Shown here: piece after piece, positions 52,972-58,501 of the stretch | Numbering within the stretch: position 1 is the first letter of the stretch | Layout of the letters: the number at the start of each line of letters is the position of its first letter | Assembly: GCF_022662195.1 (NCBI RefSeq) | Contig: NZ_JAKMCS010000007.1 | Coordinates: forward strand, 186,001 to 250,000 | Reading direction: 5' to 3' | Source: Aestuariivivens insulae | GTDB lineage: Bacteria; Bacteroidota; Bacteroidia; Flavobacteriales; Flavobacteriaceae | DNA length: 64,000 bases | Translations under genes and position numbers: made by a program | The notes under the pieces: model-generated | Told to the model about the DNA's origin: nothing | Databases searched by the model: none | The model's input: only the letters and a program-made list of their open reading frames with translations

Positions 52972-53901
52972 TTAAAAAGGAAATAATTTCAATCTACCTT
53001 CAAAAATATTAAAATACTTTTCTTTCATTTCATCTGAAAGAAAAGAAATGTCAATTAAGGCTTTCCATTTAGGAATTGTATTTTGCATTTGCTTTAAAAT
53101 TGTATCTAATGCTTTGTCGCTCAATTGTAAGCGTTCTTTAGCGTAATAATCGATAAAATCAGTTGTTTTGAGATTGCTTTTTTTTCCCTTTAAGGTTAAT
53201 GCAATTTCTTCTTCAGGGTTTTTAATGACAATGCTAGAATTTAAAAAATCGTATACTGGAGCTAATGTTGTTTTCCCATTTTTTGTAATTAGTGAAAAGT
53301 TTTTCAAATGCATATCTTCATTACCTGTGACAAAACAAAAAAGGATCCGCTTGAAAAAATCAGCCCTTTCTATAGCGGGAAATGAGCAAAATTCGTCAAT
53401 AACTGGTATTAGTTTTTCCATTGTAAAGCGATACTTGGTATCTCTTGTATTACCTGTTAATTGCGCAAAATCTTCAGTTGCATATTTTTTGCCTTTTCCG
53501 TAACGGTCAAATCGTTTTATAAAATAAGATAGACTGCCATCTTTTCCGTAGACCATACCATGAAAAGGAACTTCCAAGCCAAAGGTAGAAGCCATTCGCA
53601 TTGTTAAATCTTCATTTTCTGGTAGTTGAGGGAATAAATCATTTTGAGGTTTTATAATGTATGTTCCAAATTGATCTACAATTTTAAACTCCTGGTCAAC
53701 TACAGAAATGGAAGCACTCAATTTAGGCTGAACACCTTGAATAGATATTTTTTTTGCTCTATTGGCAGCTTCTCGTCTAAGTTCGGCTGCTGTAAAGGGT
53801 AAATCATTCAAATACGTCAATTTAGGAGCTATCTTGCGAAGTCCTTTTTCACTGTATTTTTTGTTACCACATAGTTCGTATGTAATAGGGCATCTATTCA
53901 T
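52972..53901 (-). CDS. hipT: HipT-like serine/threonine kinase toxin of a HipBST module
   Basis: 309 residues: the HipA kinase core without the N-terminal subdomain, which is encoded separately upstream. The glycine-rich loop is ISIQGVQPK with Ser53, the ATP-binding lysine is Lys84 in YIIKP, the catalytic segment is TGNEDMHLKNF with Asp196, and the metal site is PVYDFLNS with Asp218. The start MNRCPITYEL is also typical. E. coli HipT phosphorylates tryptophanyl-tRNA synthetase; the target here is unknown. The gene overlaps the HipS-like gene by 8 bases. Confidence 0.88.
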   Translation of the reverse strand: MNRCPITYELCGNKKYSEKGLRKIAPKLTYLNDLPFTAAELRREAANRAKKISIQGVQPKLSASISVVDQEFKIVDQFGTYIIKPQNDLFPQLPENEDLTMRMASTFGLEVPFHGMVYGKDGSLSYFIKRFDRYGKGKKYATEDFAQLTGNTRDTKYRFTMEKLIPVIDEFCSFPAIERADFFKRILFCFVTGNEDMHLKNFSLITKNGKTTLAPVYDFLNSSIVIKNPEEEIALTLKGKKSNLKTTDFIDYYAKERLQLSDKALDTILKQMQNTIPKWKALIDISFLSDEMKEKYFNIFEGRLKLFPF

Positions 53902-54208
53902 TGTCTAATAATTTGACTGTTACAGCGCCTACTAAATCGCTTCCAGTAGCAATTAACTGAGAAAAATAATCGTTTTTATCTATTTTGGCAATCTTTAATA
54001 AACCTTCTAACATAACGCCTTCAGGTAATAAACCTTCAAAAAAAGGAGGAAATGAGTTATAGCCATATGTTTTATGGTTAGTAGGCATGGTTAAGGAAAT
54101 AGCTGCACCATCATAATTATCATCATATTCAAAAGTATATTCGCTAGGGGAGACCTCAGTTAACACCCCAGCTCTATGTCCATGTACCATGACAACCGCT
54201 TTTCTCAT
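53894..54208 (-). CDS. hipS: HipS-like protein (detached HipA N-terminal subdomain)
   Basis: 104 residues matching only the N-subdomain 1 of HipA: VMVHGHRAGVLTEVSPSEYT, AAISLTMPT, FPPFFEGLLPEGVMLEGLLK and TGSDLVGAVTVKLL. In HipBST systems this small protein is the antitoxin that blocks HipT, while HipB is the DNA-binding partner. The gene starts 8 bases after the HipB-like gene and overlaps the kinase gene by 8 bases, so the three are coupled. Confidence 0.85.
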   Translation of the reverse strand: MRKAVVMVHGHRAGVLTEVSPSEYTFEYDDNYDGAAISLTMPTNHKTYGYNSFPPFFEGLLPEGVMLEGLLKIAKIDKNDYFSQLIATGSDLVGAVTVKLLDNE

Positions 54209-54216
54209 TGTTATAA

Positions 54217-54426
54217 TTATTTAGTCAATGGGCTTTTAAATTCTACTTTAATATTCAAAACTTCGAGCACGGCTAAAAGGTTACTCCAACGAACCGTTTC
54301 TTTATTTTTTTCAATATCAAAAACGGTTGTTTTCCCTATTCCTGCTATGTTTGCTAATTCAAGCTGTGTGAGTCCTGCTTCTTTACGATGGGCTTTTATT
54401 AAAGCACCTAAATCTAAATTATTCAT
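54217..54426 (-). CDS. hipB: HipB-like XRE-family DNA-binding protein
   Basis: 69 residues, essentially one helix-turn-helix domain: LGALIKAHRKEAGLTQLELA, NIAGIGKTTVFDIEKNKETV and WSNLLAVLEVLNIKVEFKSP. It is the first gene of the minus-strand module and should repress it together with its partners, using the repeated operators immediately upstream at 54430-54588. Confidence 0.88.
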   Translation of the reverse strand: MNNLDLGALIKAHRKEAGLTQLELANIAGIGKTTVFDIEKNKETVRWSNLLAVLEVLNIKVEFKSPLTK

Positions 54427-54429
54427 TTT

Positions 54430-54588
54430 TACCGTTTAAGCAGTAAATATAGTTGTTTTTGGAATCAAAAAGGATAATAACATAGAAAACTTTTTAAATT
54501 CACCGTTATAGCGGTAAAAAAAGAGGTTTGAATCATATCATTTGATAAAATAATGTTACATGGGTTAAAATTACTGATATAGCGGTAA
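54430..54588 (-). promoter_or_regulatory. Three operator-like repeats upstream of hipB, spaced exactly 71 bp
   Basis: TACCGTTTAAGCAGTAA (54430-54446), CACCGTTATAGCGGTAA (54501-54517) and TACTGATATAGCGGTAA (54572-54588) share the form aCCGtTaTAGCgGTAA, an imperfect palindrome with ACCG and CGGT arms. The start-to-start distances are 71 and 71 bases. The first nearly touches the hipB start codon. They are probable binding sites of the HipB-like protein; the equal spacing could allow looped or cooperative binding. Confidence 0.75.
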
Positions 54589-54706
54589 AAATGGAAGGTG
54601 TGGATATTCTATTATGAATGGATTAATTAGACAATTTACGAAATACATATGTAGAATAATTTGGTATGTCATATGACCACGTAATTTGATACTAAAATTT
54701 TAGTAT

Positions 54707-54779
54707 GAGCCGATTAATTTTGTTAATCGGCTCAATATTTTATGTATTTTTGAGCCAATTATGTAATTTAATCGACTCA
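54707..54779 (+). promoter_or_regulatory. Fic promoter enclosed by two palindromic operators
   Basis: The first palindrome is perfect, GAGCCGATTAA (54707-54717) facing TTAATCGGCTC (54723-54733); its 5-base loop is TTTTG, a candidate -33 element. TATTTTTG at 54745-54752 matches the TAnnTTTG -7 element, 22 bases further on. The second, imperfect palindrome, TGAGCCAATTA facing TTAATCGACTCA (54751-54779), runs from the end of the -7 element to the first base of the start codon. A protein binding both sites would block the promoter. Confidence 0.65.
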
Positions 54780-55885
54780 TGAAGTATAATTGGCAACAAA
54801 AAGATTGGACAAAATTTAGCTACGATATAAATAGGCTGGAAGAACGATTATATGCTTTTGCTGAAAAGTCTGGGCTTATAAGTGGTATTCTAAAAGCGAT
54901 GCCTAAAGAAGCCCATGTGCAAACAACGATTGATATTTTGGTTGCTGAAGCTATTAAAACTTCGGAGATAGAAGGGGAGTATTTAAGTAGAAAAGATGTT
55001 ACATCTTCCATAAGAAACAATTTGGGGATTAATATCAAAGAGGAACAGGTTAAGGATAAAGAAGCCAAAGGGATGGCAAATCTCATAACAGATGTTCAAA
55101 ATAGTTATGCCGCTGTTCTAACCCAAGAAAAGTTATTCGATTGGCATAAAATGATATTCCCTTATGCAAAGAATATTAGGGTTGGTGGATGGCGTACTCA
55201 TAAAGAACCCATGCAAGTTGTATCAGGGAGAATTGATAAGCCAACAGTACATTTTGAAGCACCACCATCTGAAAGAGTACCTATGGAAATGAATAATTTT
55301 ATTGATTGGTTTAACAAAACATCTCCCTATGGAAATGCCCCTATTAAGTATGCTCCGATACGATCGGCCATTTCACATTTATATTTTGAAACAATACACC
55401 CTTTTGAAGACGGAAATGGTAGAGTTGGTAGAGCCATAGCCGAAAAAGCATTGTCGCAAACCGTAGGTTCCCCACTTTTGTTAAGTCTTTCTGTTGCAAT
55501 TGAAGCAAAGAAAAAAGATTATTATGAAGCTTTAAAGGAGGGGCAGAGTAGTAATGAAATTACGGCTTGGTTAGAATATTTTATTGATGTGATATTACAG
55601 GCACAAGACAATTCGGAAGCGTTGATTGATTTTACATTAAAAAAGACAAAACTATTTGATGTTTATCAAGAAAGATTCAATGATAGGCAGTTAAAAGCTG
55701 TTAAGCGTATGCTACAGGAAGGTCCAGGCGGTTTTGAGGGTGGTATGACGGCCAAAAAGTATATGCGTATTACCCAAACATCAAAAGCCACTGCTACTAG
55801 AGATTTGCAGAAGTTATCAGAGTTAGGCATCTTTGAAGTTAAAGGTGATGGGCGCAGTACATCTTATTATATCAAGTTTGTCTAA
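54779..55885 (+). CDS. Fic family AMPylase-type protein with N-terminal inhibitory motif
   Basis: 368 residues. The N-terminal DUF4172-like region (MKYNWQQKDWTKFSYDINRL) contains the inhibitory helix motif TSEIEG at residues 61-66, form [S/T]xxxE[G/N], so this is a class II Fic protein that restrains itself. The Fic core has HPFEDGNGRVGR at 207-218. The C-terminus (from about residue 300) is a winged helix (MTAKKYMRITQTSKATATRD). Fic enzymes transfer AMP from ATP onto protein hydroxyls; the target is unknown. The winged helix is the likely ligand of the flanking palindromes. Confidence 0.88.
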   Translation: MKYNWQQKDWTKFSYDINRLEERLYAFAEKSGLISGILKAMPKEAHVQTTIDILVAEAIKTSEIEGEYLSRKDVTSSIRNNLGINIKEEQVKDKEAKGMANLITDVQNSYAAVLTQEKLFDWHKMIFPYAKNIRVGGWRTHKEPMQVVSGRIDKPTVHFEAPPSERVPMEMNNFIDWFNKTSPYGNAPIKYAPIRSAISHLYFETIHPFEDGNGRVGRAIAEKALSQTVGSPLLLSLSVAIEAKKKDYYEALKEGQSSNEITAWLEYFIDVILQAQDNSEALIDFTLKKTKLFDVYQERFNDRQLKAVKRMLQEGPGGFEGGMTAKKYMRITQTSKATATRDLQKLSELGIFEVKGDGRSTSYYIKFV

Positions 55886-55901
55886 TTTTACAAGAGATTA
55901 A

Positions 55902-56195
55902 TTTCATAAAAATTTCCATTCTGAAAAGGGTACAGTGCAAGTCACCGAACAAGTTACCCTCCAAGTCACCCCCCAAGTCACCCCTCAAGTCAAAAATCTA
56001 TTGAAAGTTGTTACAGAGGAGCATAATAGACAGGAATTACAGGAATTGCTCAATTTGTCAGATAGAAAATATTTCAGGGAAAATTACTTACAACCAGCAC
56101 TTGATGCAGAATTAATAGAAATGACCATTCCTGACAAGCCTAAAAGCAGTAAGCAAAAATATAGGTTAACTGAAAAGGGAAAACAAATTAAATAA
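55902..56195 (+). pseudogene. C-terminal fragment with VTxQ repeats and winged helix
   Basis: The frame is open from 55902, with a GTG at 55935 as the only plausible start, and encodes QVTEQVTLQVTPQVTPQVKN followed by LLKVV and a winged-helix segment (LNLSDRKYFRENYLQPALDA; KYRLTEKGKQIK). Such QVTxQVTxQV linkers plus winged helix form the C-terminal tail of many Bacteroidota AlbA_2/ATPase-type or Fic-type regulators. The preceding Fic gene already has its own ending, so this is most likely the tail of another, lost gene. A short expressed protein is not excluded. Confidence 0.55.
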
Positions 56196-56687
56196 ACTTT
56201 GTGTTAGTTCAATATATTTTGGCTTTAGAACGATTTATTGGTCAGAAAATTAAAAAGATATTAACAGCCCTAAAAAACAGATTGAAAATTTGTCTCTCGT
56301 TTGTACCTCGAGGCCAGTGACCACCCATGAATCAAGCAAAGTTACATATTGTGTCGTAAATAGATTACATTAAGGATTTTAAGTATTGATTAAAGACATA
56401 TTAATTCTAAATGTTTACGGAGAGTCAATTTAAATAATAGGATTAAAATAACAATATTTCAATTAAAAGGCGTTTCTTTGTATGGTATTAGCAACATTAT
56501 TATTAAGTAAAGATTTTTTTATTCCTTCCTAGTTTTTTATTGCTAACACATACTTTGATGTATTTCTATACTGCTCGTTACTATTAATATTTCAACTTGT
56601 AAGTAGGTCATAGCACATTACAGTAAATCATGTTAAACATTTAAAAGGCTTAGTTAATAGACGTTGCCTTTTATTAAACTATATTAT
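56196..56687. other. Intergenic region before the bS21 operon
   Basis: No convincing gene is visible in these 492 bases. At 56643-56672 AAAAGGC faces GCCTTTT across a 16-base loop, ending 15 bases before the ATG of the ribosomal protein gene. It could be a terminator-like attenuator or a protein-binding leader. There is no Shine-Dalgarno sequence before that ATG. The right edge of the mnmE-adjacent islet probably lies in this stretch, but I found no direct repeat of the mnmE end. Confidence 0.5.
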
Positions 56688-56882
56688 ATGCTTATTATAA
56701 AAGTAACTACAGGAGAAAATATTGAACGAGCTTTAAAGCGCTATAAACAAAAAGTAAGAAAGACAAAACAGTTAAGAGTGTTGAAAGGGAATCAGCATTT
56801 TACTAAAAAATCACTTAAAAGAAGAGAGGAAATAGCCAAAGCTAGATATAAAGAAGACTACGAACGATCAAAAGAAATATAA
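56688..56882 (+). CDS. rpsU: Divergent bS21 ribosomal protein paralog
   Basis: 64 residues from MLIIKVTTGENIERALKRYK; an earlier in-frame start at 56664 adds eight hydrophobic residues without homology. The length and the GENIERALKRYK start, then KKSLKRREEIAKARYKEDYE, are bS21. From memory the usual Flavobacteria protein begins MLIIPIKEGENID and has a TMRQLRARQ segment, while this one has TKQLRVLKGNQHF and many more lysines, so it looks like a second, variant copy. In Bacteroidota bS21 helps hide the 16S anti-Shine-Dalgarno end. The next gene starts 6 bases downstream. Confidence 0.85.
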   Translation: MLIIKVTTGENIERALKRYKQKVRKTKQLRVLKGNQHFTKKSLKRREEIAKARYKEDYERSKEI

Positions 56883-56888
56883 ATTATT

Positions 56889-57626
56889 ATGACCGATTTG
56901 CATTTAGCAGTATTAATCGATGGAGATAATGTACCTTCCGCTTATGTTAAGGAATTACTTGAGGAAATTGCTAAATATGGCAATCCAACAGTAAAGCGAA
57001 TTTATGGCGATTGGACAAACCCCAGTTTGGTTAAGTGGAAAAAGGTGCTGCTTGAAAATGCCATAACGCCCATTCAGCAGTATGGATATACCACAGGCAA
57101 GAATGCAACCGATTCGGCAATGATAATTGATGCTATGGATATTTTGTACTCAGAAAAGGTAAAAGGGTTTTGTTTGGTATCCAGTGATAGTGATTTTACA
57201 AAGCTTGCCACAAGGCTTAGAGAAGCAGGGATGATTGTTTATGGTATAGGTGAAAAGAAAACCCCCAATCCCTTTATCGTGGCATGCGATAAGTTTATTT
57301 ATCTTGAAATTTTAAAAAAGGAAGCCGAGCAAGATGATTCAACTTCCTTAAAAACTAAACCACCCAAACCCAAGGTAGATAAGATTACACCTGCAGTTGT
57401 TAATTTAATCAAATCGACCATTTCTGACTTAGAAGACGACGAAGGTTGGGCGTTTTTAGGAGAAGTAGGCACATTAATTCAAAAGAAGCAACCAAATTTC
57501 GACCCAAGGAATTATGGTTATCAAAAGCTTACCCCATTAATTAAATCAATTGACAATATTGAAATTGAACCGCGAAAAAACCCAAACAATAAGCAAAAGC
57601 TTATCTACGTCAAAATAGTTCAATAA
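56889..57626 (+). CDS. NYN-domain putative RNase with C-terminal OST-HTH/LOTUS domain
   Basis: 245 residues, no signal peptide. The NYN (PIN-like, LabA/DUF88) domain fills about 1-145: VLIDGDNVPSAYVKELLEEI with Asp11 and Asp13, then KNATDSAMIIDAMDILYSEK with Asp75, and CLVSSDSDFTKLATRLREAG with Asp100 and Asp102, forming the acidic metal site of RNases. A Lys/Pro-rich linker follows and then an OST-HTH-like RNA-binding domain (about 165-243; LGEVGTLIQKKQPNFDPRNY, GYQKLTPLIKSI). It lies between the bS21 and sigma genes with gaps of 6 and 11 bases, so it belongs to the same operon. Confidence 0.88.
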   Translation: MTDLHLAVLIDGDNVPSAYVKELLEEIAKYGNPTVKRIYGDWTNPSLVKWKKVLLENAITPIQQYGYTTGKNATDSAMIIDAMDILYSEKVKGFCLVSSDSDFTKLATRLREAGMIVYGIGEKKTPNPFIVACDKFIYLEILKKEAEQDDSTSLKTKPPKPKVDKITPAVVNLIKSTISDLEDDEGWAFLGEVGTLIQKKQPNFDPRNYGYQKLTPLIKSIDNIEIEPRKNPNNKQKLIYVKIVQ

Positions 57627-57637
57627 CACTTACTTGA

Positions 57638-58501
57638 ATGAGACCGCTCCAAATAATTGGCCAAATAACCGATAGAAATGATCTATCGGTTAGTAAATAT
57701 CTCAGCGATATTAACAAAATTAATTTGGTATCGTTAGAAAGAGAGGTCGAGTTAGCTATACAAATTAAAAAAGGAAACCAACAAGCTCTTAATGAGTTAA
57801 TTAATGCCAATCTTAGATTTGTTGTGTCTGTAGCAAAGCAATATCAAAATAGGGGCATGTCTCTTTCAGATTTAATAAATGAAGGCAATTTGGGATTGCT
57901 TAAAGCGGCTACAAAATTTGATGAAACACGTGGATTTAAGTTTATTTCCTATGCTGTTTGGTGGATAAGGCAAGGGATAGTACAATCGCTTTCTCAAAAT
58001 TCAAGAACAGTGAGGCTTCCCCTTAACAAGATTGGTCTGTTGAGCAAAATAAAAAAGGCGGAGGTTTGTTTTGAACAAAAGCATTATCGGGAGCCGACCG
58101 TAGATGAAATTTCTGAAATCATTGATGTTTCCAATGATGAAATTGAACTTTGTATAAAAAGTTCTGGTTATTGTGCTTCCATGGATGCGCCTTTATCTGA
58201 AGATTCGAACCTTAATATGCATAATGTTATTAAAGCTGAGAATTTTCCAACTCCAGATGCCGTTCTGTTTTTAGATTCGCTCCAGTGCGATTTGGATGCC
58301 GTTTTGAATTCGCTATCCGAAAGAGAGTCAGAGATCATCAAGCTCTACTATGGTATTGGTACAGAATCTGCAATGAATTTGGTAGAAATAGCAGAATTAT
58401 TTGGAATAACTAGAGAGCGGGTTAGACAAATAAAAGAATTAGCCATTTTAAAAATTAAAGATTCAAATAAGTCCCAAATATTATTAAAGTATTTAGGCTA
58501 A
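57638..58501 (+). CDS. Divergent RpoD-like sigma-70 factor
   Basis: 287 residues, the same size as the primary sigma factor of Flavobacteria. Region 1.2 reads SVSKYLSDINKINLVSLERE, region 2 has NLRFVVSVAKQYQNRGMSLS, DLINEGNLGLLKAATKFDET and FKFISYAVWWIRQGIVQSL, region 3 follows RLPLNKIG, and region 4 ends ELFGITRERVRQIKELAILK. From memory the housekeeping RpoD differs at many positions (for example WWIRQSILQALAEQSR), so this looks like a group-2-type paralog that could read related TAnnTTTG promoters. It is the last gene of the bS21-NYN-sigma operon. Confidence 0.85.
   Translation: MRPLQIIGQITDRNDLSVSKYLSDINKINLVSLEREVELAIQIKKGNQQALNELINANLRFVVSVAKQYQNRGMSLSDLINEGNLGLLKAATKFDETRGFKFISYAVWWIRQGIVQSLSQNSRTVRLPLNKIGLLSKIKKAEVCFEQKHYREPTVDEISEIIDVSNDEIELCIKSSGYCASMDAPLSEDSNLNMHNVIKAENFPTPDAVLFLDSLQCDLDAVLNSLSERESEIIKLYYGIGTESAMNLVEIAELFGITRERVRQIKELAILKIKDSNKSQILLKYLG

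Follow-up and report, generated by a model that had tools for sequence, protein, structure and literature searches.

A bS21 paralog and an RpoD-type sigma paralog recur together in Flavobacteriaceae and may form a module for reprogramming gene expression

A 64,000-nucleotide stretch of the Aestuariivivens insulae genome (the window; contig positions 186001-250000) contains an operon in which a paralog of the gene for ribosomal protein bS21 (rpsU2) is followed by a gene for a protein with NYN and OST-HTH domains and by a paralog of the sigma factor gene rpoD (rpoD2). Searching for the co-occurrence of these families, we found that this order recurs and that the combination of a spare bS21 with a spare RpoD-type sigma recurs well beyond the three-gene arrangement. 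Our tentative reading, to which we give a little short of an even chance, is that the two form a module of the Flavobacteriaceae that is kept together and reprograms gene expression at two levels, perhaps during cold or slowed growth or under stress.

As a reading of this DNA from its sequence only had described, the three genes are collinear, with gaps of 6 bases (rpsU2-NYN) and 11 bases (NYN-rpoD2), and their Pfam domains confirm the assignments:

56688 to 56882, + strand: rpsU2, bS21 paralog of clade T (64 amino acids; R24 instead of D24; Tyr54 kept; no Shine-Dalgarno sequence)
56889 to 57626, + strand: NYN (PIN-like RNase fold) plus OST-HTH/LOTUS RNA-binding protein (245 amino acids; PF01936, PF12872)
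57638 to 58501, + strand: rpoD2, RpoD-family sigma paralog (287 amino acids; regions 1.2-4 present; member of the fast-evolving clade III)

We place the start of rpsU2 at the ATG at 56688, which gives the family's usual length of 64 amino acids; the TTG at 56664 chosen by the open reading frame (ORF) finder would give 72. Position 56643, where the sequence-only reading began the operon, holds no start codon and is the first base of a leader hairpin described below. In its 72-amino-acid form the bS21 paralog scores 48.1 bits against Pfam PF01165 (Ribosomal_S21; cut-off 27); it belongs to the bS21 family by the TIGR00030 profile as well (39.8 bits, cut-off 28.95) and aligns with residues 1-60 of 7jil_z. 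The NYN protein carries NYN (135 bits) and then OST-HTH (70 bits), and its putative role as an RNase is that of its family. All four sigma70 regions of rpoD2 (r1.2, r2, r3 and r4) score above their Pfam cut-offs. Against the RpoD equivalog model TIGR02393, on which the canonical copy was not scored, rpoD2 reaches 222.2 bits, below the 354-bit cut-off; it is an RpoD-like paralog, not the primary sigma.

Both paralogs coexist with canonical copies. The genome (4.23 Mb in 33 contigs, 99.97% complete) has a canonical bS21 gene with an extended Shine-Dalgarno (SD) sequence, AGAGAGGAGGT, on contig C12 and a canonical RpoD gene on contig C11, and the operon's proteins are 47% (bS21) and 53% (sigma) identical to these, so that calling them divergent was fair. 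The NYN protein has a single match in its own genome. Among the best matches listed (about 155), the canonical RpoD of relatives is 97-100% identical to the canonical copy of A. insulae, and rpoD2, at 53%, is thus a paralog and not the product of lineage drift. The macromolecular synthesis operon of Proteobacteria has the order rpsU-dnaG-rpoD, and the sequence-only reading saw a likeness to it: bS21 comes first, an RpoD-family sigma last, and one gene stands between them on one strand. This likeness is superficial, since the window has paralogs in place of housekeeping genes and a NYN gene in place of the primase gene dnaG, whereas canonical rpsU and rpoD lie apart on separate contigs. We rejected homology with the macromolecular synthesis operon on these grounds; that operon is also mentioned in the excerpted text of PMC9578407.

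Extra bS21 genes are common in this family: two or three are present in 120 of 299 Flavobacteriaceae genomes, and at least two in 6 of 238 genomes from other families of the class, which were searched with a different query. Sixty loci were chosen from the matches listed, by bS21 similarity and from genomes with at least two bS21 genes, and comprised 58 paralogs and 2 canonical genes. A sigma paralog lies within 1.5 kb in 30 of the 58 paralog loci, a NYN gene in 7 and a cold-shock gene (csp) in 9. In a set of named genomes, which overlaps the first, a sigma lies within the same distance in 25 of 69 paralog loci. Around canonical rpsU, a sigma, NYN or csp gene was found within 1.5 kb at none of 22 loci (for 20 of these the region covered extends about 1 kb to either side) and, the sets taken together, a sigma at none of 33 canonical-type loci. 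Regions picked by sigma position were left out of these linkage counts and are included in the SD counts below. The genes occur in the orders rpsU-NYN-rpoD, NYN-rpsU-rpoD, rpsU-rpoD, csp-rpsU-X-X-csp-rpoD, rpoD-rpsU and NYN-rpoD-rpsU. Many of the rpoD-rpsU pairs occupy one chromosomal site, flanked on one side by a Vut_1-type transporter gene and a large protein that matches no Pfam family and on the opposite side by DUF2797, GH3, clpX, clpP and tig. Three genomes (G082, G083 and G131) have three bS21 and three RpoD-type sigmas each, that is, two pairs and the canonical set. At locus L155 (genome G048) the sole bS21 detected is of the sigma-linked paralog type, and the canonical gene may be missing or unassembled. 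A search of the journal literature, with preprints and most subscription journals outside it, found no published account of a bS21-sigma pair in Bacteroidota.

Trees of both paralogs place them in three largely matching clades. In a bS21 tree of 156 rows, built from 64 columns with a bootstrap that had not settled and with the genome's own canonical bS21 (L001) outside it, a branch with support 99/93 divides the rows into 36 that are mainly canonical and 120 of paralogs and phage; the canonical side also holds two R24 rows (L221, L233) and one phage row (L317). The paralogs form groups T (23 rows including the window, 99/96), M (32 rows, 99/81) and E (41 rows, weak as a whole at 88/0). In the sigma tree, the sigmas of T-type loci form clade III (6 rows, 84/84) and those of E-type loci form clade I (23 rows, 97/94), while clade II (6 rows, 100/100) contains the sigmas of M-type loci L152 and L156, its other four rows having no bS21 within about 2 kb. 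Six linked sigmas fall outside the three clades (L066, L067, L087, L124, L155 and L158). When RpoD of other families was added, in a tree built without four very long rows (L075, L162, L158 and L067) and with the mistranslated outgroup row L371 disregarded, clade III and L066 made up one side of a 99/96 branch, L124 joined clade I and L375 stood apart. In this extended tree a group of 22 rows (80/97) unites the canonical RpoD of Flavobacteriaceae with that of other families and leaves the bS21-linked sigmas outside. The trees fit a history in which both genes were duplicated long ago and then inherited together, with several deep forks unsettled and long branches meeting.

Both genes are under purifying selection. 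Where synonymous divergence is unsaturated, the ratio of nonsynonymous to synonymous substitution is 0.02-0.19 for sigma pairs (the top value involves a broken Aestuariivivens marinum gene and is not reliable), 0-0.17 for bS21 and 0.03-0.04 for NYN. At nonsynonymous sites the sigma evolves about 2-6 times faster than NYN in four intact pairs. Among 12 sigma sequences compared, region 2.3-2.4 (FDETRGFKFISYAVWW) and the start of the region 4.2 helix are kept, and clade-specific changes fall directly after that helix start and at the C-terminal end of region 4.

The two types of bS21 gene also differ in how their translation would begin. In a GTDB-derived set, with genes classed by residue 24, a match of at least 7 bases to the complement of the anti-Shine-Dalgarno (anti-SD) sequence precedes 22 of 22 canonical-type rpsU genes (D or T at 24) and none of 66 paralogs (R or K at 24), 15 of which have a match of 5-6 bases. 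In the named set, classed in the same way, an SD match is found in 1 of 69 R/K24 genes (L203) and is absent from 6 of 11 canonical-type genes (D, N or E at 24). The window's rpsU2 has R24 and no SD in the upstream 30 nucleotides, and hence neither the D24 nor the extended SD that mark a canonical bS21 gene.

These differences have mechanistic implications. Excerpts of PMC9976891 describe how Tyr54 of bS21 stacks on A1534 and redirects the 16S tail, how bS21-free ribosomes initiate faster on rpsU mRNA, and how canonical rpsU of Flavobacterium johnsoniae is autoregulated through such ribosomes and its SD. The canonical rpsU of the genomes studied here has the same extended SD; the paralog, in contrast, has none and so stands outside that loop. 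Tyr54 is present in 81 of 82 bS21 genes, including the window's; in a wider set 64 of 66 paralogs have it, as do 67 of 80 phage genes. With this residue kept, the anti-SD is probably still hidden by the variant. If a paralog occupies the bS21 site and is itself made independently of an SD, it would lower canonical bS21 synthesis, because canonical rpsU is best translated by bS21-free ribosomes through its extended SD.

Promoter sequences suggest that rpoD2 may read its own promoter. Canonical rpsU has TAnnTTTG within 300 nucleotides in 30 of 32 loci. In 36 loci where the sigma gene comes first, a -33 box (TTWGGATTT, TTAGGTTTT or TTTGCTTTT) is followed 19 bases on by TAnnWTRT in place of TAnnTTTG; by the rule applied, the -7 box is of the modified type in 24 of them, canonical in none and without assignment in 12. 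Thirteen related rpsU2 loci without a sigma, taken from 65 such loci, have the canonical box only (6), the modified box only (1), both (1) or none (5). Ten of the 13 stand at the E site and L108 beside DUF2797 only, and L248 and L273 were chosen by bS21 kinship, their site not being checked. This contrast is the one line of evidence found for the sigma acting on the pair; it is indirect and comes from branches of the family to which this operon does not belong. Loci with csp first have another promoter type: TTNCTTTG is present in 7 of 7 distinct cases and TAnnTTTG in none, with L068, whose rpsU starts with GTG and which lacks the exact TTNCTTTG box, outside that set. Elsewhere TTNCTTTG occurs in 2 of 13 rpsU2-first loci (the window and L071) and in 2 of the 65 sigma-less rpsU2 loci; it was found in none of the 36 sigma-first and none of the 32 canonical rpsU loci.

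NYN genes are present in 144 of the 299 family genomes, and among 30 NYN loci examined, A. insulae included, 3 have bS21 and sigma on either side of the NYN gene; further rpsU-NYN-rpoD cases are in G131 and G196. In the named genomes, NYN and sigma both lie within 1.5 kb of rpsU in 9 of 80 loci. Carriers of the triad are A. marinum (with a broken sigma), Mangrovimonas aestuarii, Croceivirga lutea, two Croceivirga metagenome-assembled genomes, Muricauda sp. CP2A, Flagellimonas olearia, F. algicola and F. flava. The order is thus kept in relatives; its absence from all of them was an outcome that the sequence-only reading had named as fatal to its proposal, as was a genome without further copies of bS21 and sigma, which the canonical genes on contigs C12 and C11 likewise contradict. 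In G124 the triad adjoins the same DUF2797-GH3-clpX-clpP-tig block as many rpoD-rpsU pairs, which suggests that the two forms are related by rearrangement. According to the excerpted text of PMC2848206, bacterial NYN plus OST-HTH genes have no conserved neighborhood links to other known RNA-processing systems, and relative to that text the link of NYN to rpsU, csp and rpoD is an addition.

Upstream of rpsU2, the window has three further features:

56643 to 56675, + strand: leader hairpin with a T-rich 3' side, directly before rpsU2 (folding of an 87-nucleotide stretch, -11.9 kcal/mol, compared with relatives)
56461 to 56646, + strand: leader/promoter region (blastn, 72% identity to the region upstream of csp in A. 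marinum, L194:5553-5742)
56472 to 56480, + strand: promoter-like box GTTTCTTTG, counterpart of TTNCTTTG in relatives' csp-rpsU2 loci (alignment, 8 of 9 rows, not L068)

At eight loci that were compared (A. marinum, Mangrovimonas, Robertkochia (G190), G187, G124, G220, G027 and G082), the gene immediately before rpsU2 is csp, and two of the csp proteins were confirmed as PF00313. The gap between csp and rpsU2 contains a hairpin in seven of the eight, followed by at least five T in six; L068 has none. Read-through into rpsU2 may thus be controlled at these loci; CspA-type proteins act as antiterminators. The window's hairpin is weaker and stands at the position of these terminator-like hairpins. 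The two csp genes of A. insulae itself lie elsewhere than the operon. A pyrimidine-rich stretch in the leader resembles the 16S anti-SD itself, as ACTCCTTYCTAT in L194 and L068 and as TTCCTTCCTAG in the window at about 56520-56535, and such a stretch is also present in L195. Locus L075 (G082) has a row of csp, bS21, two ORFs (one of which we take to be cupin-like), csp, sigma and a DEAD-box helicase gene.

Several observations weigh against a bS21-sigma module. There is no sigma within 1.5 kb in 28 of the 58 paralog loci, and 86 genomes carry an additional sigma but no additional bS21. Across genomes, extra bS21 and extra sigma are weakly associated (odds ratio 2.0, p 0.004), and the association of extra bS21 with NYN is stronger (odds ratio 3.4, p 6e-7), neither being corrected for kinship. 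The promoter contrast has a p of 1e-5 that is descriptive, because the loci have common ancestry and the rule was drawn up once they had been inspected. The window's own promoter region is of the TTNCTTTG type, unlike that of sigma-first loci, and the same type occurs at L072 and L073, neither of which has a sigma gene within the 14-16 kb examined. The modified motif resembles SM5 (TAnnTTGY) of F. psychrophilum, which, in the excerpted text of PMC9723704, has one primary sigma, sigma54 and seven extracytoplasmic function (ECF) sigmas, so another sigma may read it. A wider regulon was not found: the pattern TTWGGATTT-N13..15-TANNTTRT has 29 matches in 26 genomes with a linked sigma, the operon's own promoter accounting for 6, as compared with 27 in 27 genomes where a single RpoD-type sigma was detected; when reversed, the pattern has 42 matches in the first 26 genomes. 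We rejected a large regulon of this alternative promoter because the strict pattern is not enriched. Of five match loci inspected, three have the motif within a coding ORF of one strand or at its start; at L400 (G060) it overlaps the start codon of a gene for Phe-tRNA synthetase (PF01409), and at L390 the pattern was not found again. In A. marinum the sigma gene (L194:6997-7808) is interrupted by stops and a frame change, bS21 and NYN remaining open. In G187, of the same genus, only a remnant of NYN (L068:9977-10105) stands between bS21 and sigma; a full NYN gene lies about 6 kb from it. Finally, the window's operon contains no csp gene, in which it differs from a csp-rpsU cold-shock operon.

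That last point bears on an alternative that we consider rather unlikely. Here the locus would be a cold-shock translation operon of the csp-rpsU type, in which extra bS21 and RNA-handling proteins aid initiation in the cold, the choice of mRNA is unchanged and the sigma is a neighbor that helps expression. The nine paralog loci with csp nearby, the two csp genes and DEAD-box helicase gene at L075, and the terminator-like hairpins between csp and rpsU2 all fit this account. So do the known cold operons cspA-rpsU of Sinorhizobium meliloti and rbpA-rpsU of Anabaena (excerpts of PMC4424878), where a bS21 gene also adjoins a cold-induced gene for an RNA-binding protein; unlike the loci described here, they have no sigma or NYN named in those excerpts, and the window's operon has no csp. 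The rpoD2-rpsU2 type of pair is without csp in the stretches examined, however, and a role in bS21 dosage would need neither the diagnostic R/K24 change nor a sigma of its own.

A less probable alternative, and in our judgment an unlikely one, is that the neighborhood has no joint function, duplicates of rpoD and rpsU in a conserved site with DUF2797-GH3-clpX-clpP-tig on one side having stayed adjacent by inheritance. Most rpoD2-rpsU2 pairs are indeed in one synteny block, and ten genomes keep rpsU2 at that site without a sigma (L106, L107, L109, L111, L114-L116, L118, L121 and L122). Against this, pairs occur at other sites too and in at least five gene orders, the bS21 and sigma clades largely match, and the promoter type varies with the presence of the sigma.

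The sequence-only reading held that a swapped bS21 could change which mRNAs are initiated. In the form that the spare bS21 opens the anti-SD and turns ribosomes to SD-bearing messages, this idea is weakened by the near-universal Tyr54, and we regard it as improbable. Loss of bS21 or of its C-terminal part has this effect in F. johnsoniae, but Flavobacteriales typically have one gene only with an exceptionally strong SD, which is rpsU itself (both from excerpts of PMC9976891).

Between mnmE and the operon (window 52972-56195) lie HipA_C, HipA N-terminal (Couple_hipA) and HTH genes on the - strand, together with a DUF4172-Fic gene and, apart from it, a Fic-like C-terminal ORF. The distance from mnmE to the csp leader in A. 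marinum is no more than about 95 bases, and these genes of the window therefore look inserted. Phage bS21 was considered as well. None of 80 phage loci (IMG/VR, L274-L353) has a sigma, NYN or csp gene nearby; their bS21 genes have no D24 and no SD of at least 7 bases, as in the chromosomal paralogs, from which the search patterns came, and 15 of the 16 in the tree are on the paralog side. Among plasmid records 140 have an RpoD-like match, and among phage records 8 have a NYN relative, all less than 60% identical; carriage by phage or plasmid is thus unsupported as the source. A defense system was likewise rejected, as bS21 and NYN match no PADLOC model and the sigma gives only a partial match to MzaA of the MZA anti-phage system (223.5 bits, cut-off 800; no search was made for the other mza genes). 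The view of the module as a relic related to phage or as a device against them, with a spare bS21 that derives from or competes with phage-borne bS21, would fit the tree and the shared lack of D24 and SD, which the paralog-derived search patterns favor, and the adjoining toxin-type genes, but it is the least probable account, given the bare phage loci, the PADLOC result, the absence of those toxin-type genes at the A. marinum site and the many paralogs among chromosomal core genes.

We return to the reading of a spare bS21 and a spare sigma kept together as a module. In the mechanism we propose, the leader or an adjacent cold-shock gene would switch the operon on, and the spare sigma, its -7 preference being slightly altered, would bring RNA polymerase to its own operon and further targets. 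The rpsU2 mRNA, having no SD, would be translated by ordinary bS21-bearing ribosomes. The spare bS21 would then fill the bS21 site, hide the anti-SD through Tyr54 and lower canonical bS21 synthesis, so that the 30S pool could change hands without a separate repressor. The NYN/LOTUS protein would remove selected RNAs. The fullest form of this idea is a self-contained second program, in which a sigma with a shifted -7 preference drives its own operon, its own bS21 takes the 30S pool through SD autoregulation, and the sets of transcribed and translated messages both change; this stronger version is possible but doubtful.

Other systems share parts of this design. Excerpts of PMC9578407 describe several bS21 homologs per cell in Francisella, where loss of one alters the proteome, with no dedicated sigma reported there. 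The list of lineages with extra bS21 copies in the excerpted text of PMC9976891 does not include Bacteroidota. Dokdonia, also a flavobacterium, has a second RpoD whose promoter is given as unknown, and the excerpted text of PMC3587595 mentions no bS21 link.

It has long been asked whether ribosomes that differ in composition also differ in the messages they choose. The Flavobacteriaceae would offer natural, gene-swappable cases of this: their second bS21 carries a diagnostic residue change, stands outside the SD loop that controls the first and is often encoded next to a sigma of its own. Reporters could test the simple takeover mechanism that the SD contrast predicts. In addition, the modified promoter would supply a candidate for the second RpoD of flavobacteria, whose promoter is described as unknown in the excerpts of PMC3587595.

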